Positions 3,591-62,038 of a stretch of 64,000 nt of DNA are shown in pieces (positions within the stretch are counted from its first letter, which is position 1; each line of letters opens with the position of its first letter). The notes beneath the pieces are model-generated. The model was not told where the DNA came from. It made no database searches and worked only from the letters and a program-made list of their open reading frames with translations. Position numbers and translations under genes: made by a program. The stretch is taken from the NCBI GenBank assembly GCA_021234155.1, contig JAJEKV010000003.1, positions 27,635,166 to 27,699,165 on the forward strand, written 5' to 3'. The DNA comes from Isoetes taiwanensis. Taxonomy: Eukaryota > Streptophyta > Lycopodiopsida > Isoetales > Isoetaceae.

Positions 3591-3619
3591 CATTCCAATA
3601 GCTTGAACATTAATTTCCA

Positions 3620-3900: not shown

Positions 3901-3929
3901 GTATGTAACATGTATTACATTGTAGAAAT

Positions 3930-4681: not shown

Positions 4682-4714
4682 CTATCAATAGGAAGTGAGC
4701 GGAGTATCAGTATT

Positions 4715-4870: not shown

Positions 4871-4878
4871 CATTCCAT

Positions 4879-5007
4879 GAGGTAGAAAAAAAAAACACAT
4901 CTGGATAGATAAGTAAATAGATAAAGGCCGGGCAATTATTGGCGTGTAAATAATTGCCACGGCCTTTATCTATTTACTTATCTATCCTGCATGTTTTTTT
5001 CTACCTC
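4879..5007. repeat. 129-nt perfect-type hairpin with a palindromic remnant at its tip, copy 1
   Basis: Arms GAGGTAGAAAAA...CTGGATAGATAAGTAAATAG and its complement pair over roughly 58 bases around a short loop GGCGTG, the remnant of a CACGCNNNGCGTG palindrome. Copy 2 has the same hairpin (33,068-33,176) with the full palindrome CACGCTAAGCGTG at the tip. Conservation of both arms in two separate insertions argues that the structure existed in the parent element. Confidence 0.85.
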
Positions 5008-5612: not shown

Positions 5613-5700
5613 AATGGATTTATATAGGCATAATTAGAAATAAGTTAGCGTGAATAATTGATTGCTTGAATTAACACGCTGGCGTCACGGTCTTTCCCGC
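5613..5700 (-). promoter_or_regulatory. Promoter module 2 of element A, copy 1 (TATA plus palindrome)
   Basis: On the minus strand a CTATATAAATCC TATA element near 5,617-5,628 is preceded about 50 bp upstream by a CACGC(C)GGCGT palindrome near 5,674-5,684. The same arrangement occurs 1.2 kb away at 6,845-6,920, with the motif TTCACGCTAA between the two elements in both. It probably drives the coiled-coil gene. Confidence 0.6.
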
Positions 5701-6303
5701 ATGGACATGACATGTATATGGTATATATGGAGAATATTGCATTTCATGCAATAAATTCTCACGGCATTTTATTCCATTTATTGCATTCGAAAAAATAGAA
5801 TTTAGAAATTTTATATAGGCTAACTTAAAAATGATTTTAAAGGCAAAGTTATCAATGCTAAAAAATGACTTGTAAGGTTGGGGAATTGTTTTAGGTCGTA
5901 TAGGAAAATTTCCTATGGTTACTGTGATGCATCAAAGATTTCTCATGTGGTTGATTTATAGTGTTCCCGAGACTTTGTTGAGACAAAATTTGCAGATACA
6001 AAATTTTAGAGAGACACAATTTTAGAGAAAACAGCTTGGAGCCAAAATAATTGGAGAATACAGTTTGATTTTATCCAAAAAATTTTATGTACAGAAAAAC
6101 TGTTTGAAGAAAACTGTTTGAAGACAAAGTTTATGAAGAAAACTGTTTGATTTCATTAAAAACAGTTGTATGTAGAGATGCCCGAAGGCTTGGAAGCAGT
6201 TGCCCGAAGGCTTTTCACACAATTTACAGAAAAAAAATGCCCGGAGGCGTGTCCAAAACTTCTGTAAGAATGGAAACAAAAAATGGGCCGCCCGGGATCT
6301 GCA
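5701..6303. other. AT-rich spacer between acidic-protein gene and promoter module 2, copy 1
   Basis: I see no gene. The sequence is AT-rich, with several short repeats of the type AAACTGTTTGAAGA around 6,090-6,170. Open frames crossing it are read-through of the acidic gene's intron and 3' flank. Confidence 0.4.
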
Positions 6304-6797
6304 TCACTCTTCTTCCACGCCTGCAACAAAGAAGAAAGAAAGGTGTTAGAAAAGAAAGAAAGGTGCAAAAACAAAAAACAAAAAGAAATCACATGCAAAC
6401 CTGGTTCATCTCTTAACCACTCCAAAAACTGGTCGAATTGTCGGCCTTCCTCCTCCTCCTCCTCCTCCTCCTCCTCCTCCGAGATTTCATTCTCTGTTTC
6501 AGGGTCAAGCCAACCCTGAAGCAGAGCGGCCATGTGCTCTTGGGAGGACATCTCCTCCTCTTCCTCCAACTCCTCCTCTTCCTCCTCTTCCTCATCTTCA
6601 GAATCAGAGGAATCAGAGGAGCTCAACTCCTCCTCTTCCATGTCGAAATCAGAATCATCCTCTGAATCGGAATCAGAGGAGAATTGGGAAAGAAAATCAA
6701 TGAGGGGGGGGAATTGAGCGGGTTCTTCAACCCGACGTCTCTTTGAGGAGACCTCGGGTTCTTCATGAACGTCGAGCGCTGAGGCTGAACGCTTCAT
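6304..6797 (-). CDS. Small acidic nuclear protein of element A, copy 1 (two exons)
   Basis: Exon 1 is 6,401-6,797 and exon 2 is 6,304-6,320. The intron runs from CCAG/GTTTGC to TTGCAG/GC, and splicing gives a protein of about 137 residues ending 'EPGVEEE'. Residues 1-30 hold a basic nuclear signal (SSKRRRVEEP). Most of the rest is Ser/Asp/Glu runs (DSDSEDDSDFD, then long Glu tracts), ending with 'FLEWLRDEPG'. This composition is typical of histone chaperones and acidic activation domains, but no family-specific motif is present, so the role is unknown. It is divergently transcribed from the transposase-like gene, with the starts about 445 bp apart. This copy appears open, while copy 2 is frameshifted. 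The Glu tract is a GAG/GAA microsatellite and may vary in length. Confidence 0.65.
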
Positions 6798-6844
6798 GGC
6801 GGGCAGAAAAAAAATTGGGACAGAATGGAAGTCTTGAGAGTGTG

Positions 6845-6920
6845 AACCGGATTTATATAGGGTTAATTAGAAATTAGCGTGAATAATTTATTGCCTCAAA
6901 TAACACGCCAGGCGTACGAA
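6845..6920 (-). promoter_or_regulatory. Promoter module 1 of element A, copy 1
   Basis: On the minus strand, TATA element CTATATAAATCC (about 6,847-6,858) lies about 50 bp upstream of the acidic gene's ATG at 6,797. The palindrome ACGCCTGGCGTG (6,904-6,916) lies about 50 bp further upstream. It is almost the same module as at 5,613-5,700. Confidence 0.7.
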
Positions 6921-7242
6921 ATTCCCGCCAGCTATATCATCTAGGGTATATTATTATGGATAATAAATTCTCACGTCTATTAGTTATATGTCTTTTCGTA
7001 ATCATATATCCAAATTTTCGATAATTAAAATTTGGATATATTTATATAAATGTCATTTCCTTGTTGATTTCGTTTACGCCCATTGTTATTATTATATTAA
7101 ACCTATTTCCAAGGAATTTCTTGCTTTTAAAAAAATTTGATTTACCTCTACATATTCCATAAATGTACGTAGTTTTTTTATCTTATGGTGTAATAATTTT
7201 TTCCTACTCATTGACTAAAAAGGGTGCAATTTGCCTAGGTCA
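6921..7242. promoter_or_regulatory. Divergent intergenic region between acidic gene and transposase-like gene, copy 1
   Basis: There is no coding potential. The stretch holds an AT-rich stem-loop around 7,000-7,045 (ATATCCAAATTTT and complement). It must contain the promoter of the plus-strand transposase-like gene, but no clear TATA box could be chosen. Confidence 0.4.
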
Positions 7243-10132
7243 ATGGTGCCTCTCCAACTCAAGATGATGTGCAACATATTGAAAAGAGCAATATCAATGA
7301 AAAACCAACTCCTAGCAAGAATGTTGAAGAAAAACAATTAGTCCTCTATAGTAGGGTGCAATGGAGGAACAAGAAGGTGAGAATCATGCACAAGTGCAAC
7401 AAGGAAATAGTAGGCCAAGGAGTCATTGTGCTAGCAGATCCTGGTCAAGCTGTTAATGATGAAAGGCTAGGGGAAGACAATATTGGTATTGCAATTTCGA
7501 TGTTGGAAGACAACTGGAAAGGTAAAGGTTTGGGTGACAAGGAATGTTTTGGTTGTGTCAAGCAGGAGGTTCCTTGCATCATGGCATGGCCTATAAGTAG
7601 TGTTCAATTTGTGGAGGATTATATTTTTCCAGAGCCTGAGGTTGTTGGGGACAATGATTGTCTTGATATTGATCCATTGGCAGTTGGAACTCTAAACCTA
7701 GGCAAAAAGGGGAGAAGTATCGGTTGCCGACATTATCCTAGCAAAAGAGCCAAGTTGATTAGTGACACCAAACGTGAGACAATGGTGAAGGTTAGGGGCT
7801 CAGATTGTTGTTGGAGTGATTGTATGCAATTCTTCACAATAGAACAATTGGTGGAAGCAAGAGCCACTTTTCAAGAGTACACTGTTGATGAGAGGAGGAC
7901 CTACATGTACACAATCTTCGAGCATACACTTCAAGATGAAAGAAACCCAAAGAAAAAAAGATACCCTTTGCTAGGCAAATGGATATGTGCAAAAGCATGG
8001 CAGAGTATCCATGCAATTCCAACTTCTTCATGGCATAATTGGCCAAAAAAACAGGCAGAGGGGAACAGGATTGCTTTACATGGAAATAATGGTTTGTTAA
8101 GACCAACAGCTAGGACCTTGGCTGCCAGGGAGATATTTGAAAAATATATTGATTTCAATGCAGAGTCTATGCCACACAAAAGCAGAAGGGATGAAAAGGG
8201 AAGAGCAGTTGTTGAGAAAAGGTTGCCATCACATTGTACTCAAAAGAGTATTTTGGAAGAAGTGAATTCCCTACTTCGAGAATTGGGAATTCTTCCAATA
8301 TCCCAACCTAGCTTTAGTAGGTTATGGAAGAAGCATTTCAATCATGTCACCATAGCAACTTCAAACAACTTTGCAAAGTGCAATTTATGTGCTAAGTTGA
8401 AGGAGACTCTTGATAAGGCGTGCAACCTAGTCAAAGGGCTAGGATAAGGGGAGCATATGAAGGACCATATGGTGACCAACTATCATGTAGATCATGTTAT
8501 TGGATGTGGAGGACTTTATCTGCATTGGAACCCAATAACTATTTATGTATTATACATGACAAGATGGACCAGCAAAAGACTTGTCTTCCACAATTCAAGT
8601 ACATACCAAAGTCATGTGGAAGATCATACCCTTCTGAGATCTCAATGATGGGGCAATCTTGCATGGGCGTAATCAAACCTACTATGGCCATTTTAGTTTG
8701 GAGTTGTGGAGTGATGGTCAGATTTTCATATTGGGAGTATCATGAGGTGTTTGAGAAACTATGAAAATGGATACAATGGTCACCTCGGGGACCTTCTGAC
8801 TAGCCGGGCACTACATAGAGCATTGTTAGATGGAAACCCTAACAATATTGAAAAGTTCAGCAAGGCAAGGTTTAGGAAGCATGGGTCTAATGAACATGTT
8901 GGAGCTTCAACTTCACGTGCTAAACCTCAATATCTACCCAAAAGGTTTCTCTTGCAACTTGATAATTGTCTTTGGCCAAAATAAGAACAGGTGGATGTTT
9001 TCTTTCCTATCCTACTTAACAGCTGTGGGGATATTTGAAAGAGTTAATTTAGGGTTTCTTATGCCCGGGCATACCCATGAGGATGTGGATGCATTATTTG
9101 GCAAATATAGTTGTATCTTGAAGCAAACAAACAAAGTGACCAACTTTCCTAGGCTAATGGAAATCTTGCATGAATGCACTACTCCAAACCCTATAGCTTC
9201 TCTCATAGAAGAAGTGCCCGATTGGAAGAGCTTTGTGGATGGTTATACATTGGATCTTGAAGGTCATTCCAGGCCTCTGCAGTTCACTTTTTGGGTGAGA
9301 GATGGGATTCCAATCTTCCAATGGAAGATGAGACCTTCAGGAGGATGAGTGGGAGAGGAGGGGAGGAAATATGGCGTAGAGATGAGAATGGCAAGCCTAT
9401 GATACCTCTAGGTCAACCAAAAGCTTTAAAACCTACTGAAGAAGTGAAGCAATTGGGATTGACTAAGGAAGGAATCCAAGACTATATAAAGCATTGGCAA
9501 ACCAATCCGGATGACACCAACGAGTGCCTTGGTGGCTTACTTTGGAAGAAGGTGATTAACTTTGTTGGGGAGATAGACACATCCTCGGATGAATTGAAAG
9601 AAGGGTGGTTGCCTAAAACTAGGTGGAAGACCTTAGCAGGGTCTTTGAGGATGTTGATGACACCTTGTAAGTAGCATTTAAGCAATATGCTCCTCCTCCT
9701 TCCCGACAAACACTATGTTGGTCCTAAGAACAATAGGCCAAAGTTTCTAGGCATGGATGCTTATGAACCTTCCACTGACTTGGAATGCCACCAATTTGTG
9801 GTAGTAAAGCCATCAGATTTAGATACATATCCAGTGTGGTTGGGGTTCACTATCTCTGATATTTGCAAAGAAGAAGGTAATATTAACTTCAACCATGTGC
9901 GGGTGGAATGGTGGTGTCCAGTACCAACGTATCGGATAAAGAAAGGTACTCAGATTGTTGGACAAAGAGATGGAGGAGAAATCCGAGTGATCCTGATCTT
10001 TGGCTAGACTATGAAAGTGTTTTGTACTCATGGACTCCAAACACTATTCCAGCTAGAAATGCGAGAATTACAATACCTCAGGATGTCAGGAAGAAGGCTA
10101 TGATATCATTGGGGGTGCTTGAAGAAAGTTGA
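7243..10132 (+). pseudogene. DDE-type transposase-like gene of element A (DUF7869-like), copy 1, frameshifted
   Basis: The start is ATG at 7,243, as supported by copy 2 (MVPPTQDGVQHIEK). Copy 1 has a 2-base insertion near 7,252, so its open part begins at 7,269. In order: a basic N-terminus; a Cys-containing block with 'WISDCMQFF'-type sequence; 'RYPLLGKWICAKAW'; 'LGILPISQPSFSRLWKKHF'; a zinc-like 'KCNLCAKLK'; then 'IIHDKMDQQKT' (first acidic centre), 'LLQLDN' (second) and 'GFLMPGHTHEDVDALFGK' (third). This is the pattern of RNase H-fold integrases/transposases annotated as DUF7869. The C-terminus contains 'YPVWLGFTISD' and 'VRVEWW', a BAH/Tudor-like look. Frameshifts lie near 8,420, 8,950, 9,340, 9,660 and 9,950. 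The expected protein is about 950 residues. Confidence 0.75.
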
Positions 10133-10332
10133 ATAACTATGTAAATTTTTGTTATCACGTTTTTATGATATGGTGCTGTATTGTGAAATATTGACTATTT
10201 TGTAAATAACATGATATTACGTTTTCATAATTTTGAGGTGAAATGTGTGAATTTGAATATGCTACTAAAAACATGCAATATGAAATTTGTCCCAAAATTA
10301 AGACATAAACCTAATTTAATTGAATGATGGTT
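10133..10332. repeat. Terminal region and inverted repeat of element A, copy 1
   Basis: About 200 bp of AT-rich 3' flank follow the transposase-like gene and end with the terminal inverted repeat at 10,302-10,332 (minus strand AACCATCATTCAATTAAATT). It matches the end at 27,724 almost base for base. Confidence 0.9.
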
Positions 10333-27675: not shown

Positions 27676-27723
27676 GGTGTGAATAAGATTCAAGCAGTAA
27701 TCGAATAGCCATCGCCGAAGAAT
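27676..27723 (+). pseudogene. Ty3/gypsy pol fragment, left half (interrupted by element A copy 2)
   Basis: 'KIQAVIE*PSPKN' lies just left of element A. It joins 'VHEVRSFLGLAGF' at 40,078, reconstituting the gypsy RT/RNase H junction motif (W replaced by a stop). It is fused to copia gag on its left. Confidence 0.85.
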
Positions 27724-27923
27724 AACCATCATTCAATTAAATTGGGTTTATGTCTTAATTTTGGGACAAATTTCATATTGCATGTTTTTAGTAGCATATT
27801 CAAATTCACACATTTCACCTCAAAATTATGAAAACGTAATATCATGTTATTTACAAAATAGTCAATATTTCACAATATAGCACCATATCATAAAAACGTG
27901 ATAACAAAAATTTACATAGTTAT

Positions 27924-30818
27924 TCAACTTTCTTCAAGCACCCCCAATGATATCATAGCCTTCTTCCTGACATCCTGGGGTATTGTAATTCTCGCATTTC
28001 AAGCTGGAATAGTGTTTGGAGTCCATGAGTACAAAACACTTTCATAGTCTAGCCAAAGATCAGGATCACTCGGATTTCTCCTCCATCTCTTTGTCCAACA
28101 ATCGAAGTACCTTTCTTTTTATCCGACACGTTGGTCAACCGATGCCTTTGGACACCACCATTCCACCCGCACATGGTTGAAGTTAATATTACCTTCTTCT
28201 TTGCAAATATCAGAGATAGTGAACCCCAACCACACTGGATATGTATCTAAATCTGATGGCTTTACTACCACAAATTGGTGGCATTCCAAGTCAGTGGAAG
28301 GTTCATAAGCATCCATGCCTAGAAACTTTGGCCTATTGTTCTTAGGACCAACATAGTGTTTGTCAGAAGGAGGAGGAGCATATTGCTTGTGAATGCTACT
28401 TACAGTGTCATCAACATCCTCAGCACCTGCTAAGGTCTTCCACCTAGTTTTAGGCAACCACCCTTCTTTCAATTCATCTGAGGATGTGTCTATCTCCCCC
28501 AACAGGTTAATCACCTTCTTCCAGTAAGCCACCAAGGCACGGTTGGTGTCATCTGGATTGGTTTGCCAATGCTTTATATAGTCTTGGATTCCTTCCTTAG
28601 TCAATCCCAATTGCTTCACTTCTTCAGTAGGTTTTAAAGCTTTTGGTTGACCTAGAGGTATCATAGGTTTGCCATTCTCATCTCTATGCCATATTTCCTC
28701 CCCTCCTCTCCACTCATCCTCTGAAGGTCTCATCTTCCATTGGAAGATTGGAATCCCATCTCTCACCCAAAAAGTGAACTGCAGAGGCCTGGAATGACCT
28801 TCAAGATCCAATGTATAACCATCCACAAAGCTCTTCCAATCGGGCACTTCTTCTATGAGAGAAGCTATAGGGTTTGGAGTAGTGCATTCATGCAAGATTT
28901 CCATTAGCCTAGGAAAGTTGGTCCTTTGTTTTCTTTGCTTCAGTATACAACTATATTTGCCAAATAATGCATCTACATCCTCATGGGTATGCGGGGCATA
29001 AGAAACCCTAAATTAACTCTTTCAAATATCCCCACGCTGTTAAGTAGGATAGGAAAGAAAACATCCACCTGTTCTTATTTGGCCAAAGCACAATTATCAA
29101 GTTGCAAGAGAAACCTTTTGGGTACATCTTGAGGTTTATACGTGAAGTTGAAGCTCCAACATGTTCATTAGACCCATGCTTCCTAAACCTTGCCTTGCTG
29201 AACTTTTCAATATTGTTAGGGTTTCCATCTAACAATGCTCTATGTAGTGTCCGGCTAGTGTAAGGTCACGGAGGTGACCATTGTATCCATTTTCATAGTT
29301 TCTCAAACACCTCATGATACTCCCAATATGAAAATCTGGACCATCACTCCACAACTCCAAACTAAAATGGCCATAGTAGGTTTGATTCGCCCATGCAAGA
29401 TTGCCCCAGTCATTGAGATCTGTAAAGGGTATGATCTTCCACATGACTTTGGTATGTACTTGAATTGTGGAAGACAAGTCTTTTGCTGGTCCATCTTGTC
29501 ATGTATAATACATAAATAGTTATTGGGTTCCAATGCGGATAAAGTCCTCCACATCCAATAACATGATCTACATGATAGTTGGTCAGTCATATGGTCCTTC
29601 ATATGCTCCCTTATCCTAGCCCTTTGACTAGGTTGCACAGTCTTATCAAGAGTCTCCTTCAACTTAGCACATAAATTGCACTTTGCAAAGTTGTTTGAAG
29701 TTGCTATGGTGACATGATTGAAATGCTTCTTCCATAACCTACTAAAGCTAGGTTGGGATATTGGAAGAATTCCCAATTCTCGAAGTAGGGAATTCACTTC
29801 TTCAAAATACTCTTTTGAGTACAATGTGATGGCAACCTTTTCTCAACAACCTGCTCTTCCCTTTTCATCCCTTACGCTTTTTTGTGTGGCATAGACTCTG
29901 CATTGAAATCAATATATTTTTCAAATATCTCCCGGCAGCCAAGGTCCTAGTTGTTGGTCTCAACAAACCATTATTTCCATGTAAAGCAATCCTGTTCCCC
30001 CCACACTTTTTTTTTTGCCAATTATGCCATGAAGAAGTTGGAATTGCATGGATACTCTGCCATGCTTTTGCACATATCCATTTGCCTAGCAAAGGGTATC
30101 TTTTTGTTTGGGTTTCTTTCATCTTGAAGTGCATGCTCGAAGATTGTGTACATGTAGGTCCTCCTCTCATCAGCGATTGTACTCTTGAAAAGTGGCTCTT
30201 GCTTTCCACCAATTGTTCTATTGTGAAGAATTGCATACAATCACTCAACAACAATCGGAGCCCCTAACCTTCACCATTGTCTCACGTTTGGTGTCACTAA
30301 TCAACTTGGCTCTTTTGCTAGGATAATGTCGGCAAACCGATACTTCTCCCCTTTTGCCTAGGTTTAGAGTTCCAACTGCCAATGGATCAATATCAAGACA
30401 ATCATTGTCCCCAACAACCTCGGGGCTCTGGAAAAATATAATCCTCCACAAATTGAGCACTACTTATAGGCCATGCCATGATGCAAGGAACCTCCAATTG
30501 CTTGACACAACTAAAACATTCCTTGTCACCCAAACCTTTACCTTTCCAGTTGTCTTCCAACATCGAAATTGCAATACCAATATTGTCTTCCCCTAGCCTT
30601 TCATCATTAATGACTTGACCGGGATCTGCTAGCACAATGACTCCTTGGCCTACTATTTCCTTGTTGCACTTGTGCATGATTCTCACCTTCTTGTTCCTCC
30701 ATTGCACCCTACTATAGAGGACTAATTGTTTTTCTTCAACATTCTTGCTAGGAGTTGGTTTTTCATTGATATTGCTCTTTTCAATATGTTGCACACCATC
30801 TTGAGTTGGAGGCACCAT
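27924..30818 (-). pseudogene. DDE-type transposase-like gene of element A (DUF7869-like), copy 2, frameshifted
   Basis: The start is ATG at 30,818 (MVPPTQDGVQHIEK) and the stop TCA/TGA at 27,924-27,926. The N-terminal third is open ('LVLYSRVQWRNKKVRIMHKC'). Frameshifts at about 30,410, 30,250, 29,860, 29,240 and 29,010 separate the later blocks. Preserved are 'LGILPISQPSFSRLWKKHF', 'IIHDKMDQQKT', 'LIIVLWPNKNRW' (decayed LDN site) and a long open C-terminal part (28,119-28,904). The GHTHEDVD block is damaged near 28,985 (GHTHE to APHTHE). Comparison with copy 1 lets each frameshift be placed. The role is inferred: cut-and-paste transposition of the element. Confidence 0.75.
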
Positions 30819-31263
30819 TGACCTAGGCAAATTGCACCCTTTTTTAGTCAATGAGTAGGAAAAATTATTACACCATAAGATAAAAAACTACATTACATTT
30901 ATGGAATATGTAGAGGTAAATGAAATTTTTTAAAAGCAAGAAATTCCTTGGAAATAGGTTTAATATAATAATAACAATGGGCATTAAACGAAATCAACAA
31001 GGAAATGACATTTATATAAATATATCCAAATTTTAATTATCGAAAATTTGGATATATGATTACGAAAAGACATATAACTAATAGACGTGAGAATTTATTA
31101 TCCATAATAATATACCCTAGATGATATAGCTGGCGGGAATTTCGTACGCCTGGCGTGTTATTTGAGGCAATAAATTATTCACGCTAATTTCTAATTAACC
31201 CTATATAAATCCGGTTCACGCTCTCAAGACCTCCATTCTGTCCCAATTTTTTTTTTCGCCGCC
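30819..31263. promoter_or_regulatory. Divergent promoter region between transposase-like and acidic genes, copy 2
   Basis: On the plus strand it holds palindrome TACGCCTGGCGTG (31,145-31,157), about 42 bp of AT-rich DNA with TTCACGCTAA, TATA element CTATATAAATCC (about 31,201-31,212), then the ATG at 31,264. The AT-rich stem-loop TCCAAATTTT...AAAATTTGGA is at about 31,023-31,055. It has the same layout as copy 1. Confidence 0.65.
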
Positions 31264-31742
31264 ATGAAGGCGTTGACCTCGGCTTTCGGCGTTCATGAAG
31301 AACCCGAGGTCTCCTCAAAGAGGCGTCGGGTTGAAGAACCGCTCAATTCCCCCCTCATTGATTTTCTTTCCCAATTCTCCTCTGATTCCGATTCAGAGGA
31401 TGATTCTGATTTCGACATGGAAGAGGAGGAGTTGAGCTCCTCTGATTCCTCTGATTCTGAAGAGGAGGAAGAGGAGGAAGAGGAGGAGATGTCCTCCCAA
31501 GAGCACATGACCGCTCTGCGCCCGGGGTTGGCTTGACCCTCAAAGCGAGAGAATGAAATCTCGAGGAGGAGGAGGAGGAGGGAGGAGGAGGAGGAGGAGG
31601 AGGTCGACAACCGACCCGGTTTTTGGAGTGGTTAAGAGATGAACCAGGTTTGCATGTGATTTCTTTTTGTTTTTGTTTTGCACCTTTCTTTCTTTTCTAA
31701 AACCTTTCTTTCTTCTTTGTTGCAGGCATGGAAGAAGAGTGA
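31264..31742 (+). pseudogene. Small acidic nuclear protein gene of element A, copy 2, frameshifted
   Basis: It starts with MKALTSAFGVHEEPEVSSKR (NLS SSKRRRVEEP preserved) and acidic DSDSEDDSDFD runs, then shifts frame near 31,515 ('EHMTALRPGLA' stop). The intron CCAG/GTTTGC...TTGCAG/GC is intact (31,648-31,725) and the original stop is TGA at 31,740-31,742. The Glu tract is shorter than in copy 1 through loss of GAG repeats. Confidence 0.65.
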
Positions 31743-31744
31743 TC

Positions 31745-32339
31745 ACGAGATCGGGCGGCCCATTTTTGTTTCCATTCTTCTGAAGTTTTGGACCGCCTCC
31801 AGCATTTTTTTTTTCAGTAAATTGTGTGAAAAGCCTTGAACAAGCTGCTTCCAAGCCTTCAGGGCATCTGTACATACAAGCTTTTTTAATGAAATCAAAC
31901 AGTTTTCTTCATAAACTTTGTCTTCAAGCAGTTTTTTCTTCAAACAGTTTTTACGTACATAAAATTTTTGGATAAAATCAAAAGCAGTATTCTCCAATTA
32001 TTTTGGCTCCAAGCTGTTTTTCTCTAAAATTGTGTCTCTCTAAAATTTTGTATACGCAAATTTTGTCTCAACAAAGTCTCGTGAACACTATAAATCAACC
32101 ACATGAGAAATCTCGATGCATCCACGGTAACCATAGGAAATTTTTCTATCGACCTAAAACAATTCCCCAACCTTACAAGTCATTTTTTAGCATTGATAAC
32201 TTTGCCTTTAAAATCATTTGTAAGTTAGCCTATATAAAATTTCTAAATTCTATTTTTTGAATGCAATAAATGGAATAAAATGTCTTGGAGAATTTATTGC
32301 ATGAAATGCAATATTCTCCATATATACCATATACATGTC
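31745..32339. other. AT-rich spacer between acidic gene and promoter module 2, copy 2
   Basis: I see no gene. Matches the spacer at 5,701-6,303 of copy 1. Confidence 0.4.
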
Positions 32340-32430
32340 ATGTCTGGCGGGAAGACCGTACGCCAGGCGTGTTAATTCAAGCAATCAATTATTCACGCTA
32401 ACTTATTTCTAATTATGCCTATATAAATCC
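32340..32430 (+). promoter_or_regulatory. Promoter module 2 of element A, copy 2
   Basis: Palindrome TACGCCAGGCGTG (32,359-32,371) is followed by ATTATTCACGCTAA and, about 50 bp on, by the TATA element CTATATAAATCC. The module is a near duplicate of 31,140-31,212. It probably drives the coiled-coil gene. Confidence 0.65.
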
Positions 32431-33067
32431 ATTTTACGCTCTCAAAGTTCCTACATTTTCTTCCTTCCTTCATATGATTTTGCGGTTCTTGGCTGCTTCT
32501 TTGTGTTTGGATCCATGATCACGAAATCTTGGTGAGCGATTTATATTCAGCAATGTTAGATGTTTGGTTTCGGCAATTCTAACTTACTAAAAGACTCGCC
32601 TTTTAGTTTACAGTAGCATCTCATGTAGAGAGGACTAAGGTCTGCGAATCGAAAAAAGCCTCGGAATTAAAACCACAAGCATAGTCCTCCGTTCTTGAAT
32701 CCTTCCGACCTCACAACTCAAGGTTAGTTTTCATTTAGTTTTTAAGTTGCATCTCAATGGCGGGTTTAATCCAAGAAGACAAGCTTTTGCATTTGCTCGA
32801 GGCGAGAGGAAGCGGAGATGATGTTTATGAAAACCGAATAGTTTTTATAAACTTCATCCGCTTCTTTGTTTCAGTAAATTCTTGAGTTTCTCTTCTGAAT
32901 TAATCATGCTATTGCATGCAAGTTTCTATTATGAATAAGTGTAGTAGAAAGCATTAGAAAAATCTGAAAGATAATATTTGAAACATGCTAAAAGCGTGTT
33001 TTATGGTAACCTTAGCCTTCAACATGAATACGCTTCGTGCACTTTCAGTGAGAGAGGTAGAAAAAAA
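32431..33067 (+). other. Leader/intron region of the coiled-coil gene, copy 2
   Basis: There is no coding signal. A stem-loop lies at about 32,810-32,866 (arms GAAGCGGAGATGATGTTTAT and complement), followed by TTTCAG. This could be a spliced 5' leader starting at promoter module 2. Confidence 0.45.
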
Positions 33068-33176
33068 GCATGCGAGATAGATAAGTAAATATATAAAGGC
33101 CAGGCAATTATTTACACGCTAAGCGTGTAAATAATTGCCTCGCCTTTATCTATTTACTTATCTATCTATCTGCATG
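33068..33176. repeat. 109-nt hairpin tipped by CACGCTAAGCGTG, copy 2
   Basis: GATAGATAAGTAAATA...CAATTATTTA pairs with its complement, with the 13-bp palindrome (33,115-33,127) forming the tip. It is the undamaged version of the hairpin at 4,879-5,007. Confidence 0.85.
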
Positions 33177-33236
33177 TTTTTTCCCTCTAGCGGGAATACA
33201 TAGCGGCGTGTATAGTTTTTCCTATATAGCAGTTTA

Positions 33237-33349
33237 CACGCTGAGCGTGCAAACAATTGTATCCCTACTTTCAACTTTACGCTAAACACGTCGGGCGTGT
33301 CTCTTAGTTTCTAAGTTTATAAATAAATAAATATAACACACCAGGCGTG
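33237..33349. repeat. Cluster of CACGCCNGGCGTG palindromes, copy 2
   Basis: CACGCTGAGCGTG (33,237-33,249), CACGTCGGGCGTG (33,287-33,299) and CACACCAGGCGTG (33,337-33,349) are spaced 50 bp apart, just upstream of the coiled-coil gene ATG (33,383). The regular 50-bp spacing is notable. Confidence 0.85.
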
Positions 33350-33382
33350 AATACTGATACTCCGCTCACTTCCTATTGATAG

Positions 33383-33915
33383 ATGCCAAGTTACATTAAT
33401 CACCCGGTTGGTGACGAAGATGCATTAGAATTACATTTGGGCCAGTAATCACACAGCCCAGCTCCAGTTTCGGCTCCAGTTTCCACTCCGGTTGAACCCA
33501 GCCGAGCACTAGTCCGGTTGGAGCACCAGTCTTGCAACCCCTGGAGTACTTGGATCAAGTAATGATGATGGCAGCAGAGCGCAGGGCAATGATAGATCTG
33601 GGCTCTGGGGCCCTTGCAATCGCACGGAGGCTGGCCCTCTTATCTAATCACTTCGAGAATGCAGTACATGCATTGATCGAGAGTGAATCTCGCATCCGTC
33701 AGCTCGAGATTCAAAATGAGGAGCTGCGTTTCTTAGTGCGGATGCCCCAACACGAACCACTACCACAGGCGGTATACGATGCAATGGAGATGGCTCAACC
33801 AATCGAACCACTACCGCAGGCGCTATACGATGCATTGGAGGTTCAACCAATGGAGCGGCGGAGGCGGGAGCAGGAGCGGGGAGGTGGAGGTGGAGCAAAG
33901 GGGTGGTGGAGCTAG
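33383..33915 (+). pseudogene. Element A coiled-coil protein gene, copy 2, frameshifted
   Basis: The start is MPSYINHPVGDEDALEL at 33,383, with an early in-frame stop (CAG to TAG, near 33,446) and a shift before 33,530. The downstream block is open to 33,915: 'EYLDQVMMMAAERRAMIDLG', the heptad helix 'LALLSNHFENAVHALIESE', then 'IRQLEIQNEELRFLV' (second helix), two 'AMEMAQPIEPLPQ'-type repeats and a Gly/Arg-rich tail. It probably encodes a protein of about 180 residues that oligomerises through the coiled coil. The family is unknown. Confidence 0.5.
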
Positions 33916-34152
33916 AGCACGGTGTTTTTTTCTTTGGGGTTTTACGAGGAAGAATTCACTATGCCTGCAATGGAAATGGGAGTATCGATAGCCCGGCTAC
34001 TCAGTAGACTGGGCTTGAAACAATAGATGCAGGATTTTGTCCGGTTTATCCGGTTTATCAGATTATATACAATTGTAATCTTTTTCCAATGAATACAACA
34101 AATTTTGTCTACTTCTATATTTCTACAATGTAATACATGTTACATACCTTTT

Positions 34153-34420
34153 TTAAGCGGTTTCTTGGCCATGCAACAAATGTTCCAACACTTTCTCCAA
34201 CCGTATCCCCACCGGGGTGTCTGCGAGGTAAAGCTTCATCCATAGCGCATGATTAATCAACGTAACTTCGGACATACTTATCCCCGGCGGAATTCCATGG
34301 CGGTTTCTGATCGGATCGATGGAGTCGATCTTGCATAATCCTACTTTCCTTTTTCGATTTGTAGTTAACATGAAACATTCATCTTGACACTCGAGGAAAA
34401 TTGCTATTGAGACACCTACT
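34153..34420 (-). pseudogene. Conserved exon on the transposase strand of element A, copy 2
   Basis: Contains 'RKVGLCKIDSIDPIRNRHGI' and 'ALWMKLYLADTPVG...LEKVLEHLLHGQETA', matching the plus-strand stretch 3,620-3,900 of copy 1. A GTATGT-type donor follows at about 34,148. A shift sits near the PPGDKY block. The family is unknown. Confidence 0.45.
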
Positions 34421-34840
34421 ATTGGAAATTAATGTTCAAGCTATTGGAATGAGATGAGTACGTTAATTTTGTAGCCATTCTTGAGAAGCTGATTTGAGTC
34501 TCTGAAGGCTGATTTGAGAAGTTGAAGGCGCTATGGAAACTCTGGCGGTCGGGGAAAATTGAATTAGAAGAAAGATTAGGTTAACTACGTTTAAGGCGGG
34601 ATAAATTTGGCGGGATACTTTTTGGGTAGATTGGTTTTAAAACTTAATGAAAGAAGTCGTACGGACGGGTCTTTCGTCATTATTATTTGTATATGTCAAG
34701 AATATTTCAAAGCGCATTTTGTGTTTTCTTGAAATTCAAATTTCTCTATTTCTCGTCTGGTAGAAAAAGCTATTCCTTCGAAAGCTTCGGCTTCGGCCAG
34801 ATCCGGCGACCTTCCGACTCTGTTACTAGGCGACTGGGAG

Positions 34841-37800
34841 ATGTCTTCTAAAGTTTAATCGAGGTCGAGGAGGGATCGGGTGAAGGAAGCGGTGGAAGAG
34901 GAATCTCTAAACCCGGCTCTTCTCAAGCTTCAGAGGACGTTGATCAGAATACACAGAATACACAGAACCCTATTCAAGGTATTTAATTTGCCACAGAATA
35001 CACACTGTGTGGAGAGTATTATGCTTGCATGAATTTGAGATATTTCCTTTCACTTAATATGCTTTGCATGAGTTTGAGTTATTATGCTTTGCATGAATTT
35101 TAAGTATTAACATCAGTTAATGCTCTGATTGTCCGTTCTGTAGAACATAATTTTGCTCTGTTTTATATATAGAATATAGCGGTGTTAGACAGTTGGAGAT
35201 AGCAATGTTCAATGAGGTTAAATAGTGTGAAATATGGATTCATGAAGGGTATGTAGCTTAAATGTGGATGCAAAATAATTTAGTTTCAAATTAACGCATA
35301 ACATGGTCAATAATAGGAGATACCAACACGCCAAGCGTGATTTGTACTAATTTAGGTTTAAATGCACGCCAAGCGTGATCTCTTGTTACGAAAAGTCTTT
35401 GTAAAAAGTGCTCATCTTCATTTGCGATTGCTCAAGAGGAAGAAAACCCCTAATAATTGGGGTTCTAATCACGCCAAGAAAGCAAGGGCAGACGACCCAG
35501 ATGCGGTACCATATGATCTCACCTTAGATGATGAAGGGCCGATTCTTATAGCAACCACTGACCCTGCCTGGCCTGAAGAGGAAATGGACGAGGGTGCCGA
35601 GTGGTACGTTGACCTTGCCAAGACAAATGGCAAGCTCGACTTAACTCTCTTCTCGAGGAAAAAGGAAGCAGACAAGATGGCCAAACAAGGGATCCTAATC
35701 TCTTGTGAGGAAGAGGATGACACCAAGCGCAAATTGCTCTTGGAGATTACGAAGCGAGAAGAAAGATCCGCCGGACTTACTCCTTTGTAGAGCTCGCATA
35801 CAAGGATACGTTCATGAAGACGGATGTGAGCGGTGAGACATGTTTTTAAGTATGGTTGGCCAACCAATGTAGCGATTACGCCAATATCTATTTGCCAAGG
35901 GGTTACAGCTGTGCGTAGAGGCATGTTCACTAAACCGACACCAAGTCACTATTTGCAGCAAGCTAGGGAATTAGCTGACTTGAAAGCTTCTAAGAGGGTC
36001 CTAGATCTAGGGAAGGATGTTCAACCTGCAGTTGTCGAAGGCATGGAGGCTTCTATTTTTGAGAATGAACAGACAATTAGTGGCGCAGCCTAGAGGCCAT
36101 GAACAGTTTGAATAAATACTCTGACCATTATCCATTGGGTCTTAAGGAAACTTTTGCGATCCATGTGAAGTCCCTCATCCGTTCACCAAGCTCCATTTAT
36201 GTTAGCAGAAGATATGATCCAGCACATGCCATGGAGATTGTTCAGAGCATGATTAGTAATCCAGGTCAAATGCCTATGCCGGATGTGCTACCTTGGGATA
36301 TGATCTCGAACAAACTTCTTTGTGTGTGGGATCTAACGCCCAGAGCTATTATCAAGTGATGATATTAAATATGTCATCATCGGCCGGGCAAAGATTCCGT
36401 TGAGGCACAAAAGGCGATCATCAGTGCCCGAGAACAAACAGGCCAAAAAGTGTTCTACAATCACTATGCGTATAGGAGGTGTCATATCTTGGATGCCAAT
36501 ACTTCACCTGCAGATTTGGCTGAGATTAGTGCAACTTTGAATGAAATGGGGAAGACATTTCTATACAAAAGGTAATCAACCTGGTTTCATAAATTGTATT
36601 CACGCCAGGCGTGCTTTCAAATCAAACCAGTTCACGCCGTGCGTGTTTTCAAATCAATCGAATTCCGCCCGCGTGTTTTCAAGTCAACCAATTGATTTGA
36701 AAAACGCCGGGCGGAATTGATTGATTTGAAAACACGCGGGCGTGAACCGGTTTGATTTGAAAGCACGCGCGTGAATTGCATTAGTAACTTTATTCATTTC
36801 ACGCCAGGCGTGATTTTTCTCTTGATCAATTCTATTCAAATCGCGGCGTGTTTCTATTCTATGATACTAATTCAATGTGCGTACTATTGCAGTCCATCGT
36901 TGAACAACCGCATGCGCCAGTCAACGATGGGTGGAATATGGCTGCCCATTGCCCACCGGGCATGGTCAAAGTCCGAGGCATTCAAGTTTCTTTGGAGCGG
37001 ACTCGCATGCATGAACAATTATCTGAGAGAAGAAGAAGGCGCAAGAAAATCAAAAGAAAAAGGTGGTGATGACATTGCAGATCCTTCTGAAAGCTCATCC
37101 AGCAGGTCAGGACCAACAGACTCGTATAAGATTGTGTTTTGTAAGGAGGCAGTATGGCTCAAGTGGAATGATCTCGGGACGCTTATGCACAAGGGAAGCT
37201 GCCAGATACTATGGGTAGGGTGCCTCCTGTTGATGTAAGCATCTTTGACTTGAATGTGACAGAGATGAGAAAGACTCGGGGGCTAGGCGACGAGAGACCA
37301 TTTGGGTTTTAGACCGTGCTTAAAGAAGGAAGTCTTATACAAGAAGGGTGCTTTCACCAAGGATAGGATGTCCTTCGTTGAGTGCTGCAGCCATGTAAAG
37401 GATGTACGTACAATGAAGTCAGCTGTAGGAGCTGAGTTACAAAGGCTATCGGGGGATGTGGCATTATCTGAAATTGGATTCTTTGGACAAATACAAGGTC
37501 ATGTAATGATGACATCAAGAAGTTTGTATTACGGTCAAAGGACTTCCTAAAGAATTGGAAGGCTAAAAATACAAAACATAAGGAGACTCTACCCCTAAGG
37601 TCTTGAGTTGAGTTGAGAAGAAAAGTGGCCCTTGTGAAGAAGATTCTTTGGAGAAGATGACACATCCCATATTGAGTCTCCATTGGGTACAAAGGTCTCT
37701 TGCCAGATTCAACTTCTGGCCTTAAAAATATATCACTCTTTGTGTTGGACAGCAGGGGTGGGAGAGGAGATATGGGCATGAACGGAAGGACTGATAGCTT

Positions 37801-38570
37801 CTTTACCGGTGTATAGGATTGACAACTGAGAGGTCCTTCACTATTGTCATCGTTTGTCCTTCAGGTGAGTCACATCTGCATGCACTATCTGCTGCTCATG
37901 ATCTGGAGTGCCTCAAAGTTATTAGGGAGGGATGCCTAATATATGATGTTAAGGATAATGAGTCTGAACGTAAGCGGAAGATGGCACATGTGATCTTTAT
38001 TATGATATCCATCTTTGTCCGGACGAGGAATATGATATTGCTAAGGCCAAGGGTGACAATAGCGGTGCATGGGAATGTTTTTCTTCTAGATGATCGGACT
38101 TAAGAACTATATTCTTTCATACGGATCGGGATCGGTAAGCGGGATGAGTCGAGAAGAGGATGAGGATCGGGACCCCCTCCTAAGTGGGGAAATCAAGTAC
38201 GAGCTACAAACTAAGGAGAAGGGTCCCTTAAATAAAAATGGATTTCCCCGTCTATGGTCGCTTACCTCGTCGAGGCATTTGCTCCAATTGATACAACTGC
38301 TTGGAGCTTCATGTTGGAGGTTATATTGCCCGAGAGGCTCTTATGGGTGCAAGAAGATGTCTTTGCTTTGTGAGTGATGAGCAGGCCAAAGACTTTCTTG
38401 AACCATTCCTCATGCATGTGCTTGCCAAGTCTCCTAAAGGCCCTTATGGCAACCTGAAATCATCAGCAATCAAAAGTCTCGTAGACTTGTCCAATTCGAA
38501 AGTGGGCGTTGCTTACGGAGTGGGAACTAGTAATCTGCGACCGATAAGGAAAGCGGTAATGAACAAATAG
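34841..38570 (+). pseudogene. Element A multi-exon gene (RGG N-terminus, ParB/DGQHR-like segment), copy 2, frameshifted
   Basis: Exon 1 starts at ATG 34,841 and is damaged early; its 3' end encodes 'EDVDQNTQNTQNPIQ' up to the CAAG/GTATTT donor. Exon 2 (about 35,434-36,571) has a weakened acceptor here. It contains 'RKKTPNNWGSNHAKKARADD', an acidic 'LTLDDEGPI' block, 'RKKEADKMAKQGILISCEE', 'FKYGWPTNVAITPISICQG', 'PTPSHYLQQARELADLK' and 'NSLNKYSDHYPLGLKETF'. In shifted frame it ends with 'IGG/GQ(H)SVEAQKAI' and 'YAYRRCHILDANTSPADLAE'. The intron 36,572-36,892 holds palindromes. Exon 3 starts at 36,893 (acceptor TATTGCAG) with 'KIVFCKEAVWLKWNDLGTL'. Further blocks reach 38,570 ('FLEPFLMHVLAKSPKGP'). 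It is probably one protein of more than 900 residues. The function is unknown. Confidence 0.6.
36572..36892. repeat. Intron with palindrome cluster, copy 2
   Basis: CACGCCAGGCGTG at 36,601-36,613 and 36,800-36,812, CACGCCGTGCGTG at 36,633-36,645, and decayed copies at about 36,667, 36,705, 36,733 and 36,763, alternate with TTTCAAATCAA / TTGATTTGAAA spacers inverted around the centre. The intron can fold into one long stem. Confidence 0.8.
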
Positions 38571-39114
38571 TTGCTAAACTGGTTGCTCAAAGAAACCGAT
38601 GATGGGCGAACTTAGGGAATATTTTTGCCCACATTGCGGGTGATGCAAGCAACAATAGAGTAGATTCACAAGTTAACAATGAACTAATTGACGGAAAAAC
38701 GAAAATGAAGGCAAGCGAAAGGCGGCTCTAGTGATTCACAGGTTTGCCAAATCAATAGTAAAATAATGTCGGTTGTGAAGGGCCGCGGAACTAATAGAAA
38801 ATAACAATTCTAACAAATCGAGAAGAAGGCGAAGATTAAGGGTGGCGAAGGGGAGAATGGCGCCGATGATGGCGTAAACGAAGATGATAGGTATGGCCTT
38901 GCCCACGAAATAGCGCCACGCAGCGTGATTTAATTTGTATTACCTTTGAATTAAATCGCGCCAAGCGTGCTTTGATTATTTTTCGTTGTCAAACTAAATC
39001 ACGTCGGAAAGCGATTTGGTTATGACTATTTCAAATCACGCTTGGCGGCGTTTGTATTGTTTGTGTTATCGTACCTTCTTTGACCCGGATACATGTTTGA
39101 TGTTTCACTTCCAT
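38571..39114. repeat. Non-coding stretch with palindromes before the phosphatase-like segment, copy 2
   Basis: After decayed coding-like DNA (38,571-38,890) come CACGCAGCGTG (38,919-38,929), CGCGCCAAGCGTG (38,957-38,969) and CACGCTTGGCGGCG (about 39,037), then an acceptor-like TTTCTAAG before 39,125. This is likely an intron of the same kind as 36,572-36,892. Confidence 0.6.
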
Positions 39115-39124
39115 TGCGTTTCTA

Positions 39125-39677
39125 AGAAGGTTGTGGTGTTCGACCTAAGCGGAGTCCTTTGCAAGACTTTTCGAAAAATAAAGTGGCTAGAGAACGGTTT
39201 CATCGGACACACGGTAGAATCAAACACCAAGTGGATCTATCCGGCGGACTTGAAGGAGATGCTAGGCGAGGCATTCAGGTTATTTCGAGTTGGTATTTGG
39301 TCATTCATGGAACTAAGGAACATCAAGGATACTTTGGAGCCACCGGGGAAATGCGTAGACATTGGTTGACCCTTTGGGATCGGAACAAATGTGTGAAGTT
39401 CACTAATCCCAAGGATCCAACAGGCAAGCCTATCTTCATCAAACACTTGAGTAACATGATGGACGAACTTGGTATCGAGAATAAGGATGATATAATCATA
39501 GTGGATGATGATGCTCTCAAATGCTTCTACAATCAAACACAGGCCCTGAATCCACCATCTTACGATCCAAAAAACTTTGCGACAGATGATTTTCTGGTGA
39601 AGTTTGTGTCTATTATGCATAATTTGGCTATGGGGATGACGGTGGGTGGTGTTAGATTCGTACCCAGAACTGGATAG
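39125..39677 (+). pseudogene. FCP1/NIF-like phosphatase-like segment of element A, copy 2
   Basis: The segment begins 'KKVVVFDLSGVLCKTF', matching the HAD/FCP1 motif I pattern (DxDGTL, plant variants DLNGxL). After a frameshift near 39,320 come 'LWDRNKCVKFTNPK', 'PIFIKHLSNMMDELG' and 'DIIIVDDDALKCFYNQTQAL', which follow the order of plant NIF-like proteins (W-D-x-x-x-C ... K-D-L ... LLVDDSPYK). The second catalytic Asp of motif I is Ser here, so phosphatase activity is doubtful even before the frameshift. The stop is at 39,675-39,677. It may be the last exon of the multi-exon gene or a separate gene. Similarity was judged by eye. Confidence 0.55.
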
Positions 39678-40073
39678 AACGGCGGACATGGAACCACACC
39701 TTGTTAAATACGTGGAAAAACATGGATTGATTCCTTAATGTTTTATTGGAATATATGATATTTTTGTATGATATTTGTGCCATGTATCGATAATTTCGAG
39801 TCTGGAATTGCCTCGCAAATAATGCAATTTGTTATTATCAAACCTAATATTATCATCTATCGAGCAAGCAATTTTTGTCTCATCTATGTTATCAACTTGC
39901 TCTTATTCTGCATATTTCAATTCGCATATGAAAAGTCACACGTGAATCGCAACCTTATGTTATTTTTGAAGTCCAAAAAAAAAGATTAAAAAAAACAAAA
40001 ACCCCCTAGAAGACAATAGCAGGTTGGCGTGATTTTGGAGTTGACATAATCCCAATTTAATTGGATGATGGTT
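39678..40073. repeat. 3' flank and right terminal inverted repeat of element A, copy 2
   Basis: AT-rich DNA without genes ends in TTGACATAATCCCAATTTAA...GATGGTT at 40,073, preceded by a half palindrome (TTGGCGTGATTTTGGAG, 40,024-40,040). Confidence 0.85.
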
Positions 40074-40520
40074 GAATGTGCATGAGGTGAGAAGCTTCTT
40101 GGGCTTAGCAGGATTTGTTCAAAACAATGACATGGTATGGAAATTAAACAAGGCAGTTTATGGCTTAAAACAAGCACCAAAGGGATTGGTCGCACTATGC
40201 AAGATACAACAAACCCAGCTGTCGGTACGGGATGCTGCTAGGGGACGAGCGGGTACGAGTGCACCACCTGGGGTTGGTCGCACTATGCAAGATACAACAA
40301 ATCCAGCTGTTGGTGAGTCTTCTGAAGGGACCTTGAATGGAATTTCTGAGGAAGAGATCAAGGCTCTTGAGAAGATGAAGATGCCAGAATTCGATGGAAC
40401 TGGTACGCTAGAGGATGCTATGCTATGGTTCGGTCACATGAAGTTATATTATGCGGCTACTAAGAAAAGCGATACAGCAAAGGTGTTGCATGCTTCTCTT
40501 AAGCTAAAATGTGTTGTTGC
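40074..40520 (+). pseudogene. Patchwork of retrotransposon fragments (gypsy RT/RH, copia RT, gypsy gag)
   Basis: One open frame joins 'NVHEVRSFLGLAGF' (Ty3/gypsy RT-RNase H junction), 'VWKLNKAVYGLKQAPKG' (Ty1/copia RT), a linker containing an 88-bp duplicated stretch (TTGGTCGCACTATGCAAGAT at 40,186 and 40,274), and 'KMKMPEFDGTGTLEDAMLWF', a gypsy-type gag up to 'HASLKLK'. The frame then runs on into the LINE inserted at 40,521, so the 426-residue reading frame as a whole is an accident of nesting. No single retrotransposon has this order. Confidence 0.75.
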
Positions 40521-60173: not shown

Positions 60174-62038
60174 AACCAACATTCAATTATTTTAAGAATA
60201 TGTCTTAATTTTGGGAGTTTTTTTTTCACGCAGCTTCCGTCGCTTTTGCGTTTTTTTTCCTTTCGTCGCTTTTTTCCTCTTCCCGCCCGCCGGTCACTTT
60301 CTTAAAACTTTCCCCCTACTTTTCCCACTTTCTCCTTTTCGTTTTCCTCACTCCTTTTTTTTTTTCATTTTCTTTTACGCCCGCTCTTTTCTTCTCTTCT
60401 TTCTCTCCGCCCTGACTTCGAGCGGCGCCTTTCCTCCAGACTTCGAGCTACGGCTTCTTCTATGGCGCCTTCGAGCTATGGCGCCTTTCCTTCAGGCTAT
60501 GGCCTCCTCACGCTATGGCGCCTGCTTAGCCCATTTTAACTGAGGCAACAAAGGAGGCACATTCCAGCTGAGGATGACTAAGGAAGGATGAGGCAAGAGG
60601 CTTTCTTTTCTCTGAACATTCTTCATAGCCAGGCCTATGCCGACCTTTTTGCCATTCCGACTTTCCTTCCCATATATTTCCCTGCTTTCTTCATGGACAA
60701 ACCTATTTCGGCATTTTTTTTCCATTTCGTTCTTCATAGAAAGACCTGTTCCGACCTTCTTCATGCCAGGTGAGCTCGGTCTGCTCTTTCTACCATTTCG
60801 GATGCATCCATTCAAGCTATAGTGAGTATGGTTCGCCTTAGGTTCTCTTGCAATGGCTGTGTTTTCTGCAGGATCATATTTCAAATGACCAGGGCATGCA
60901 AGAGATAGAGGGACTGCCATATCTGCAGGTATTATTACCATCAAGTTTAGATCTCTCTATTTCGATTATGATAATCTATTATTTGGCCTTCAATTCCGAA
61001 TCAGAGTTTATGTACCAAGTTTGTGGGAATGTGTTCTTCAGTTCGTTGAGATCTTATTTGCTTCAATTTGGCGATGATACAGAAGCAAAAGGAACGATAT
61101 GAGATGAGAAGCTTTTATGAATATCTGGAAAGCACACTACACAGATGGGATTGCTTAGGATTTAATAGTTATTTTGCAGAAGATTTAGCCAAGACCCAAA
61201 TTCTTGCTCCCAATTACATTATATTTGTTTCCAAAGGCTTGTAGCAGCACAGATCATGTGATTCTTGTTCTGTTTTGCTTACAATTTGTTTGCAAAATTA
61301 ACTCAGTTCTGATTGTGTACTGGTGTTTTCGATGCTGCTGAAGGGAATAGATGCTGCTGAAGGGGATAGATCTTTTCGATATATGCATGGGCTCTATCAT
61401 TCTCAAAGAAGAGGATGAAAGATGGATTAATATTTACTGCGAAACTTAAACTTTTGGACCTTCAATCATCCAAGCTAAATCGCGCCAAGCGCGTTTTCCA
61501 TGTTTTCACATTCTAAAGTTTAAAGCGTGTAAACTGTAAAGCATGATTTTATTTACATATATGTTTTTATAAATCAAAAAGTAAATGTTTACGTACCTCA
61601 TTTTTTTGTTGTTCGTAGGCCCTTTGCAAATTAATGAGAGTGTATTTTTGAATAATTGTGTTGAATGTCAACTATAAGGTGTATTGTGTTTGTCTTGATT
61701 CTGTCTTCAAACGCTGGATATTGGGTTAACTTTTAATGTTGCTAAATATATATTACATGTATATTGACGCTATTTGCATGTCCTATAAATTATATTAGAA
61801 GATAAAACATGAAAAACAATAGCTATTCTCCATTATTCTACCTCAGAGAAATATCTCAATAATGCATGAATAAGTCTCCTTTTTATGGCATAATTTAAAT
61901 TAGACTAGTCAACAAGTGTTTTTGAGTGAGATTTTTGGTGAATTGGTTTAATGTAAAAACAACAATATTTGGCTTTTATAGGGCCAAACTGGCGCGCTTT
62001 TGGAACAGACATAATCCCAATTTAAATGAATGATGGTT
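60174..62038. mobile_element. Element C: 1,865-bp non-autonomous relative of element A
   Basis: The left end AACCAACATTCAATTATTTT followed by ATGTCTTAATTTTGGGA matches the left end of element A at 27,724. The right end (minus strand AACCATCATTCATTTAAATT, then GGGATTATGTC) matches A's right end at 40,073. TTAA flanks both sides (60,170-60,173 and 62,039-62,042). A CGCGCCAAGCGCG palindrome is at about 61,483-61,495, and CTGGCGCGC lies next to the right end, as in A. No transposase. The left half carries GC-rich degenerate repeats (TTCGAGCTATGGCGCC; CTTCATAG..AGACCT) that may be captured DNA. Confidence 0.85.

Follow-up and report, generated by a model that had tools for sequence, protein, structure and literature searches.

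A multi-gene DNA transposon of the lycophyte Isoetes taiwanensis with a predicted DUF7869 transposase and a candidate control module

What kind of mobile element is a 12.35-kb insert that has the ends of a cut-and-paste transposon and carries several genes besides a transposase-like one? The question is raised by a stretch of 64,000 nucleotides from Isoetes taiwanensis (GenBank assembly GCA_021234155.1, contig JAJEKV010000003.1, positions 27,635,166 to 27,699,165 of the forward strand), called the window here, in which all coordinates below are counted. The original prediction, made from the letters of this DNA, described a complete multi-gene DNA transposon with a 4-bp target-site duplication (TSD). 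We find that the segment from 27724 to 40073 is one mobile unit, a real DNA transposon of the terminal inverted repeat (TIR) type carrying several genes. We consider it rather likely, judging the explanation as a whole, that the element is a recently amplified lycophyte TIR transposon with a DUF7869 transposase, whose genes on the plus strand make up a control module specific to the element, of the kind represented by VANC in the VANDAL elements.

The two 31-nt ends form inverted arms that are 94% complementary and GAAT stands on either side, as had been predicted. With up to three mismatches allowed, the 31-bp end pattern is matched four times in the window and not once in 100 shuffles, and this search found no extra ends inside the focal copy. 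The termini read AACC...GGTT, both here and in eight other complete copies. Joined across the insert, the flanks read by eye P-S-P-K-N-V-H-E-V-R-S-F, and the codon immediately ahead of this frame is TAG, for which reason we regard the insertion target as a decayed retroelement. The further claim that removal of the insert restores a gypsy frame stands only as far as this joined reading goes: in the open reading frame (ORF) of the right-hand flank, Pfam gave zf-RVT above its cut-off and, under the cut-off, a weak match to RVT_2, and no gypsy domain. Rfam at gathering scores gave no match in the window.

Copies were sought in the whole assembly of 1,658,258,908 bases in 1110 contigs. Queries with the left 377 bp, the right 948 bp and an internal stretch of 999 bp brought up 1743, 1433 and 825 candidates respectively, totals that are a first look, as 40 candidates per query were scored; the element probably exists in hundreds of copies. 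All 40 scored left ends, which are the best-scoring candidates, are 99–100% identical, and the 5′ gene, where it lies over 20 bp away from CG and CWG sites, deviates from the majority sequence by 0.4%; both values speak for a young family. Ten further copies were retrieved, among them a second copy in this window, which matches the focal copy at 92% over 10.5 kb (from window position 10332 to 1). Eight of the ten have both ends, flanked by a perfect 4-bp duplication (ATTG, ATAA, AGTA, TACT, GTAG, TATT, AATG and TACT); of the other two, C1027 is apparently clipped at the left by the retrieved stretch, and in C1094a the similarity ends at about 7.2 kb. Together with the focal copy this makes nine complete copies, 12,240–12,405 bp long, which align over their full length at 90–95%. 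Their gene content and gene order are uniform, and in these copies the gene content is a property of the family. Searching the genome with the ends and aligning full copies had been proposed with the original prediction, which named gene-less copies, or genes with borders of their own, as the findings that would overturn it; the copies yielded no such finding. Two side observations concern targets and contents. Copy C1080 and the second copy of the window both lie at TACT, with neighbouring letters alike on both sides, so perhaps the same repeat was targeted. A non-autonomous relative of 1,865 bp (Table 1) shares the ends and has another interior, and the family may thus mobilise or capture other DNA.

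That the minus-strand gene encodes the transposase is well supported, and an RNase-H-like core is suggested by invariant acidic residues and a fitting order of strands, though the fold matches are modest. The original prediction had called a transposase-like gene on one strand, and DUF7869 (PF25273) indeed matches the focal ORF with 47.5 bits against a gathering cut-off of 26; the related protein P0001 scores 119.9 bits, and one consensus piece scores 23.5, under the cut-off. Residues 245–960 are homologous to another related protein, P0004, at 1e-98. Relatives were found in the liverwort Riccia sorocarpa and the amphioxus Branchiostoma, and P0004 stands for a cluster of 647 sequences; identities to relatives are 23–36%, except for P0001 at 78%. 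Among them QLDN, KN and GHTHEDxD are invariant, as are acidic residues that provide candidates for a catalytic D-D-E/D set of the RNase-H kind (D437 or D440, D572 and E611/D612). In a structural model of P0004, the strand holding D195 is followed by two more strands and a helix; the next strand ends with D321, and after it come a helix, a strand and a helix starting at E360, an order fitting that of the RNase-H fold. When this model was compared by VIA-align, 44 of the 50 rows shown were Argonaute-type, integrase (7ouf) or SETMAR (3f2k) chains, proteins that share that fold. The 90% cluster of P0004 also suggests, by its size, another host with a high-copy transposase of this kind. In Branchiostoma lanceolatum, protein P0009 combines DUF7869 with a Ulp1-type protease domain (PF02902), a hint that relatives in animals have cargo of other kinds.

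On the plus strand we read three genes, A, B and C (Table 1). For A and B there is no Pfam family above the cut-off, and the two promoter-like cassettes upstream of them are 79% identical. At least three further transcription units had been predicted on this strand. Three were indeed found, though the ParB/DGQHR-like gene and the FCP1-like segment, which had been listed as separate cargo, are not among them as such: the consensus joins both in the single four-exon gene C. This has three GT-AG introns, with all junctions (exons 0–1, 1–2 and 2–3) in phase. The exact border motifs recur in the nine complete copies nine times for the exon 0 donor, eight for the exon 1 acceptor (a motif of 7 bases, so that this count says little), eight for the exon 1 donor, six for the exon 2 acceptor and nine for the exon 2 donor. 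The 22-copy consensus of 35262–36610 is open save for one shift and reads IIDGQHSVEAQKAI, and its DGQHR/DndB-like identity is a weak lead. Exon 3 is open over 213 aa in a 29-copy consensus and open in three of the nine complete copies. On this consensus, PF03031 (NIF) matches residues 9–177 at 3.1e-15, with 56.7 bits against a cut-off of 21.8, and we regard the FCP1-like assignment of the consensus sequence as solid; the raw focal ORF gives 19.8 bits, below the cut-off. The catalytic motif of FCP1/SCP enzymes is DxDx(T/V). Gene C departs from it, the consensus having DLNGV and the focal copy DLSGV, so that the second catalytic aspartate is absent. Behind the FCP1-like domain, the C-terminal end of exon 3 has a weak match to DUF433 (0.0016, below the cut-off). 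A reading of exon 2 as a methyltransferase, made by eye, was dropped for want of support.

The element also contains multiple copies of a palindrome, CACGCCNGGCGTG. Up to two mismatches being allowed, the focal copy has 12 against 0.08 expected from 60 Markov shuffles of that copy; the other eight complete copies have 2–17 each, numbers that miscalled bases have probably lowered. Apart from the two large copies, the window has none. In the majority of the nine copies, 13 sites fit CACGC-N2/3-GCGTG, against 0 in 200 simulations, and an 11-copy majority has eight sites within two mismatches of the 13-mer palindrome. Six of the CACGC-N2/3-GCGTG sites in the nine-copy majority lie in intron 2 of gene C, where tandem units of 32 and 29 bp run in opposite directions. 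None of the 12 focal palindromes falls in an exon of our models. Arrays of a motif that is specific to the element, as judged within this window, are thus present in introns and upstream regions. Two near-perfect inverted repeats, one upstream at 33075–33167 (46 nt, 96%) and one in an intron at 36609–36768 (30 nt, 97%), could form hairpins.

The reading that we favour would work as follows. The DUF7869 transposase would cut at the 31-bp inverted ends, and the excised element would join target sites staggered by 4 bp, by cut and paste. Genes A, B and C would form a control module specific to the element, at least one of their products binding CACGCCNGGCGTG in the element's own promoters and introns. 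The bound protein would then keep the genes of the element expressed despite methylation, as VANC does in VANDAL. An anti-silencing role had been raised together with a role in transposition in the original prediction, and it becomes more specific and testable because the palindrome arrays occupy introns and upstream regions.

Several observations weigh against this reading. Concerning the transposase, the VIA-align scores are below 8, the two rows ranked first match short helical stretches of unrelated proteins, and Foldseek gave no match in the Protein Data Bank to the P0004 model at E ≤ 0.001. The mean predicted local distance difference test score (pLDDT) of that model is 53, and 58 around D195 and E360, while a domain-only model led by P0005 reaches 40. 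The transposase gene lies in a single open frame in none of the nine complete copies, the longest open stretch in these being 140–402 aa (423 aa in the incomplete copy C1027, L047:128-1396). All the gene models rest on consensus sequences and frames joined by hand; the consensus acceptor of exon 3 is present in only four of the nine complete copies, and the focal copy differs from the consensus at the acceptors of both exon 1 and exon 3. The motif DGQHSVEA is exact in seven of 22 copies, while one copy reads DGQRF, another DGQDS, and the remaining ones have no readable motif; this segment matches DndB (PF14072) at E 0.0054 with 16.3 bits, below the cut-off of 29.1. Exon 2, whose frame is still broken in a 15-copy consensus, found no relative at E ≤ 0.01 in a protein search with the 435-aa exon-2 ORF of one copy. 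The absence of palindromes from exons has p of about 8e-6 if the sites are independent, a value that is overstated, as tandem duplication makes them non-independent; the exon map used is of our own drawing. Finally, the error pattern described below suggests methylated copies, so that in the plant that was sequenced an anti-silencing effect, if there is one, is not seen to prevail.

To which superfamily does the transposon belong? We made this comparison on TSDs, termini and Pfam models. The target of piggyBac and Kolobok is TTAA, which none of the nine complete large copies uses, the 1.9-kb relative alone being at TTAA, and these two are ruled out by nine insertions at other targets. CACTA elements have CACTA-like termini and are excluded by AACC...GGTT in the focal copy and the other eight. 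Mutator elements have TSDs of about 9 bp and KDZ elements of 8 bp; the 4-bp TSD rules out membership of Mutator/VANDAL and, together with the lack of any KDZ model among the Pfam matches, of KDZ. In Chapaev the TSD is 4 bp. A Polinton-like reading was dropped: each copy has a single pair of ends and a single TSD, and the Pfam matches include no virion-type gene. The earlier view that the family could not be placed therefore holds, and we assign no named superfamily.

The alternative that survives best is that the element belongs to the Sola superfamily and has acquired its cargo genes, the cargo alone being new, which we regard as quite conceivable if short of an even chance. Plant Sola1 elements are known from Physcomitrella, and relatives of the transposase in a liverwort and an amphioxus fit an old and wide superfamily. 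TSDs of 4 bp are a feature of Sola; those described for Sola2 are AT-rich (AWWT, ATAT, AAAT, ATTT; PMC3627910), and Sola has been listed among plant superfamilies (PMC9033089). Against this stand the duplications GAAT, GTAG, AGTA, ATTG, AATG and TACT, which differ from the AT-rich Sola2 set, and a literature search for DUF7869 found no link to Sola either way. More ambitious, and in our view somewhat unlikely, is the idea that a DUF7869 transposase defines a new eukaryotic superfamily. Its lycophyte branch would have a control system of its own, in which regulators encoded by the element, including the fusion of DGQHR/DndB-like and FCP1-like parts, would read tandem CACGCCNGGCGTG arrays in the introns and promoters of the element itself, an anti-silencing system convergent on VANC and outside both Mutator and flowering plants. 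The literature search returned no paper with DUF7869; on Isoetes transposons or transposases it found nothing about nuclear transposons in titles and the starts of abstracts. Among the best 10 of 43 and the best 10 of 31 matches on such cargo, nothing evidently described it, and the passages of a review (PMC6431247) did not mention it either, which is not proof of novelty.

The cargo might also be a passenger, consisting of captured pieces of host genes without function for the element, as in Pack-type transposons. FCP1/SCP domains do occur in host genes, the domain in gene C lacks the second aspartate of the motif, and the quite different interior of the 1,865-bp relative suggests that the family may pick up DNA. 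Yet the same three intron-bearing plus-strand genes are found in all nine complete copies, the consensus exons 1 and 3 of gene C are open or nearly so, and the palindromes, which within the window occur only in the element, sit in the promoters and introns of the cargo. On balance we think this explanation unlikely.

Very unlikely, in our judgement, is a relic all of whose copies are dead, with indels that are real decay after amplification. In its favour, each complete copy differs from the majority by 412–749 substitutions and 184–282 indel events, there are many stops, and the consensus sequences are still broken, as is the transposase frame in every complete copy. What argues against decay is where the deviations lie. 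The substitution rate at CG and CWG is 6.7% in the 3′ end of the element and rises to 15% in its two larger parts; more than 20 bp away from such sites it is 1.4% in the 3′ end, 2% in the middle and, in the 5′ gene, the low value given above. Control CWC/GWG sites deviate by 3.5%, compared with 17.5% for CWG. Transversions reach 5.8% at CG and 7.1% at CHG, against 1.5–1.6% elsewhere, and deletions are enriched at CG and CHG in the same way. Deamination would raise transitions only. Since the deviations concentrated at CG and CWG include transversions and deletions, and not C-to-T changes alone, we take the majority of frame breaks to be probable nanopore errors at methylated cytosines, the repeat being beyond the reach of short-read polishing; the original prediction had not raised this point. 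The sequencing history also tells against a relic: the assembly was made from Oxford Nanopore Technologies R9.4.1 reads polished with racon and pilon (PMC8566536). The miscall pattern would also imply methylation of the copies in both CG and CHG contexts. The original prediction had suggested rebuilding a consensus and checking that all frames open. Exons 1 and 3 of gene C are open or nearly so, whereas breaks remain in the transposase and exon 2; they persist because the majority sequence is derived from the same error-bearing copies. Deviations between copies at CG and CWG may serve as a methylation footprint in a repeat.

A nest of separate insertions with borders of their own, to which the two similar promoter-like cassettes might point, is almost certainly wrong and for these copies already refuted, because the nine complete copies share gene content and order, one end pair and one TSD each, and the focal copy has no further 31-bp ends within it.

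Table 1. Features of the window, with positions counted from its first letter
Feature	Positions	Strand	Basis or remark
Left 31-bp TIR	27724..27754	+	Arm pairing and end-pattern search
Right 31-bp TIR	40043..40073	-	Arm pairing and end-pattern search
TSD GAAT, left copy	27720..27723	not set	
TSD GAAT, right copy	40074..40077	not set	
Putative transposase gene, ~960 aa read across frame breaks	27927..30818	-	DUF7869 (PF25273); ends placed by eye
Promoter-like cassette, TATATAA box and one palindrome	31096..31227	+	Upstream of gene A; box read by eye
Gene A, short acidic protein with basic KRRR stretch	31264..31640	+	3′ end and possible second exon uncertain
Second promoter-like cassette, TATATAA and one palindrome	32312..32445	+	Upstream of gene B; box read by eye
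Four palindromes, within 2 mismatches, upstream of gene B	33115..33349	not set	
Gene B, protein of about 200 aa, coiled-coil-looking middle	33383..33990	+	Frame joined by eye; coiled coil judged by eye
Gene C exon 0, ATG, RG-rich N terminus	34841..34978	+	Consensus splice model
Gene C intron 1, two palindromes	34979..35428	+	
Gene C exon 1, DGQHR/DndB-like segment	35429..36571	+	Consensus splice model
Gene C intron 2, three palindromes in focal copy	36572..36892	+	
Gene C exon 2, about 665 aa, without recognisable family	36893..38890	+	Consensus splice model
Gene C intron 3, one palindrome within 2 mismatches	38891..39107	+	
Gene C exon 3, FCP1/SCP-like HAD phosphatase domain	39108..39738	+	PF03031 on consensus
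Second copy of the element	1..10332, runs past window start	-	TSD TACT
Non-autonomous relative, 1,865 bp	60174..62038	+	Both inverted ends, TSD TTAA, different interior

Two neighbouring ORFs complete the picture of the window. Adjoining the end of the second copy, 10334–11827 on the minus strand holds an arginine-rich ORF of 498 aa that has no Pfam family at E 0.01. A reverse transcriptase ORF (RVT_1, 4.7e-29) follows at 13162–15170, and then a weak zf-RVT match below the cut-off.

These results give a likely function, that of a transposase, to DUF7869, a widespread domain of unknown function, and they indicate that a plant cut-and-paste element can retain the same apparently regulatory gene set across copies. 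For transposon anti-silencing outside the VANDALs of Arabidopsis they offer a concrete test case, in which a motif, the places where it occurs and three candidate regulators are named. They also bear on nanopore assemblies of plants in general, in which frame breaks can be methylation artefacts, so that copies taken for dead may be intact.

How does the element compare with known systems? The transposase is homologous over much of its length to DUF7869 proteins, whose domain Pfam labels as one of unknown function. Gene C resembles FCP1/SCP (NIF) HAD phosphatases through its PF03031 match and differs from them in DLNGV and in the DGQHR-like part and 665-aa region that precede the domain. To DndB/DGQHR proteins it is linked by the consensus motif IIDGQH(S) and the sub-cut-off model match, and it differs in its setting, a eukaryotic transposon. 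With Sola, compared by description, the element has TIRs and 4-bp TSDs in common, whereas the accessible parts of PMC3627910 and PMC9033089 mention neither such cargo nor palindrome arrays. The closest parallel in layout is VANDAL21 of Arabidopsis, a Mutator-like element that likewise combines a transposase with extra genes and has tandem motif arrays in introns and upstream regions: the regions bound by VANC21 are tandem repeats, which lie upstream of VANA21 and within introns of both VANC21 and VANB21 (PMC5735166). The likeness stays at this level, as the VANC motif has one orientation and is not palindromic, whereas the motif of the Isoetes element is palindromic and GC-rich and its TSD is 4 bp.

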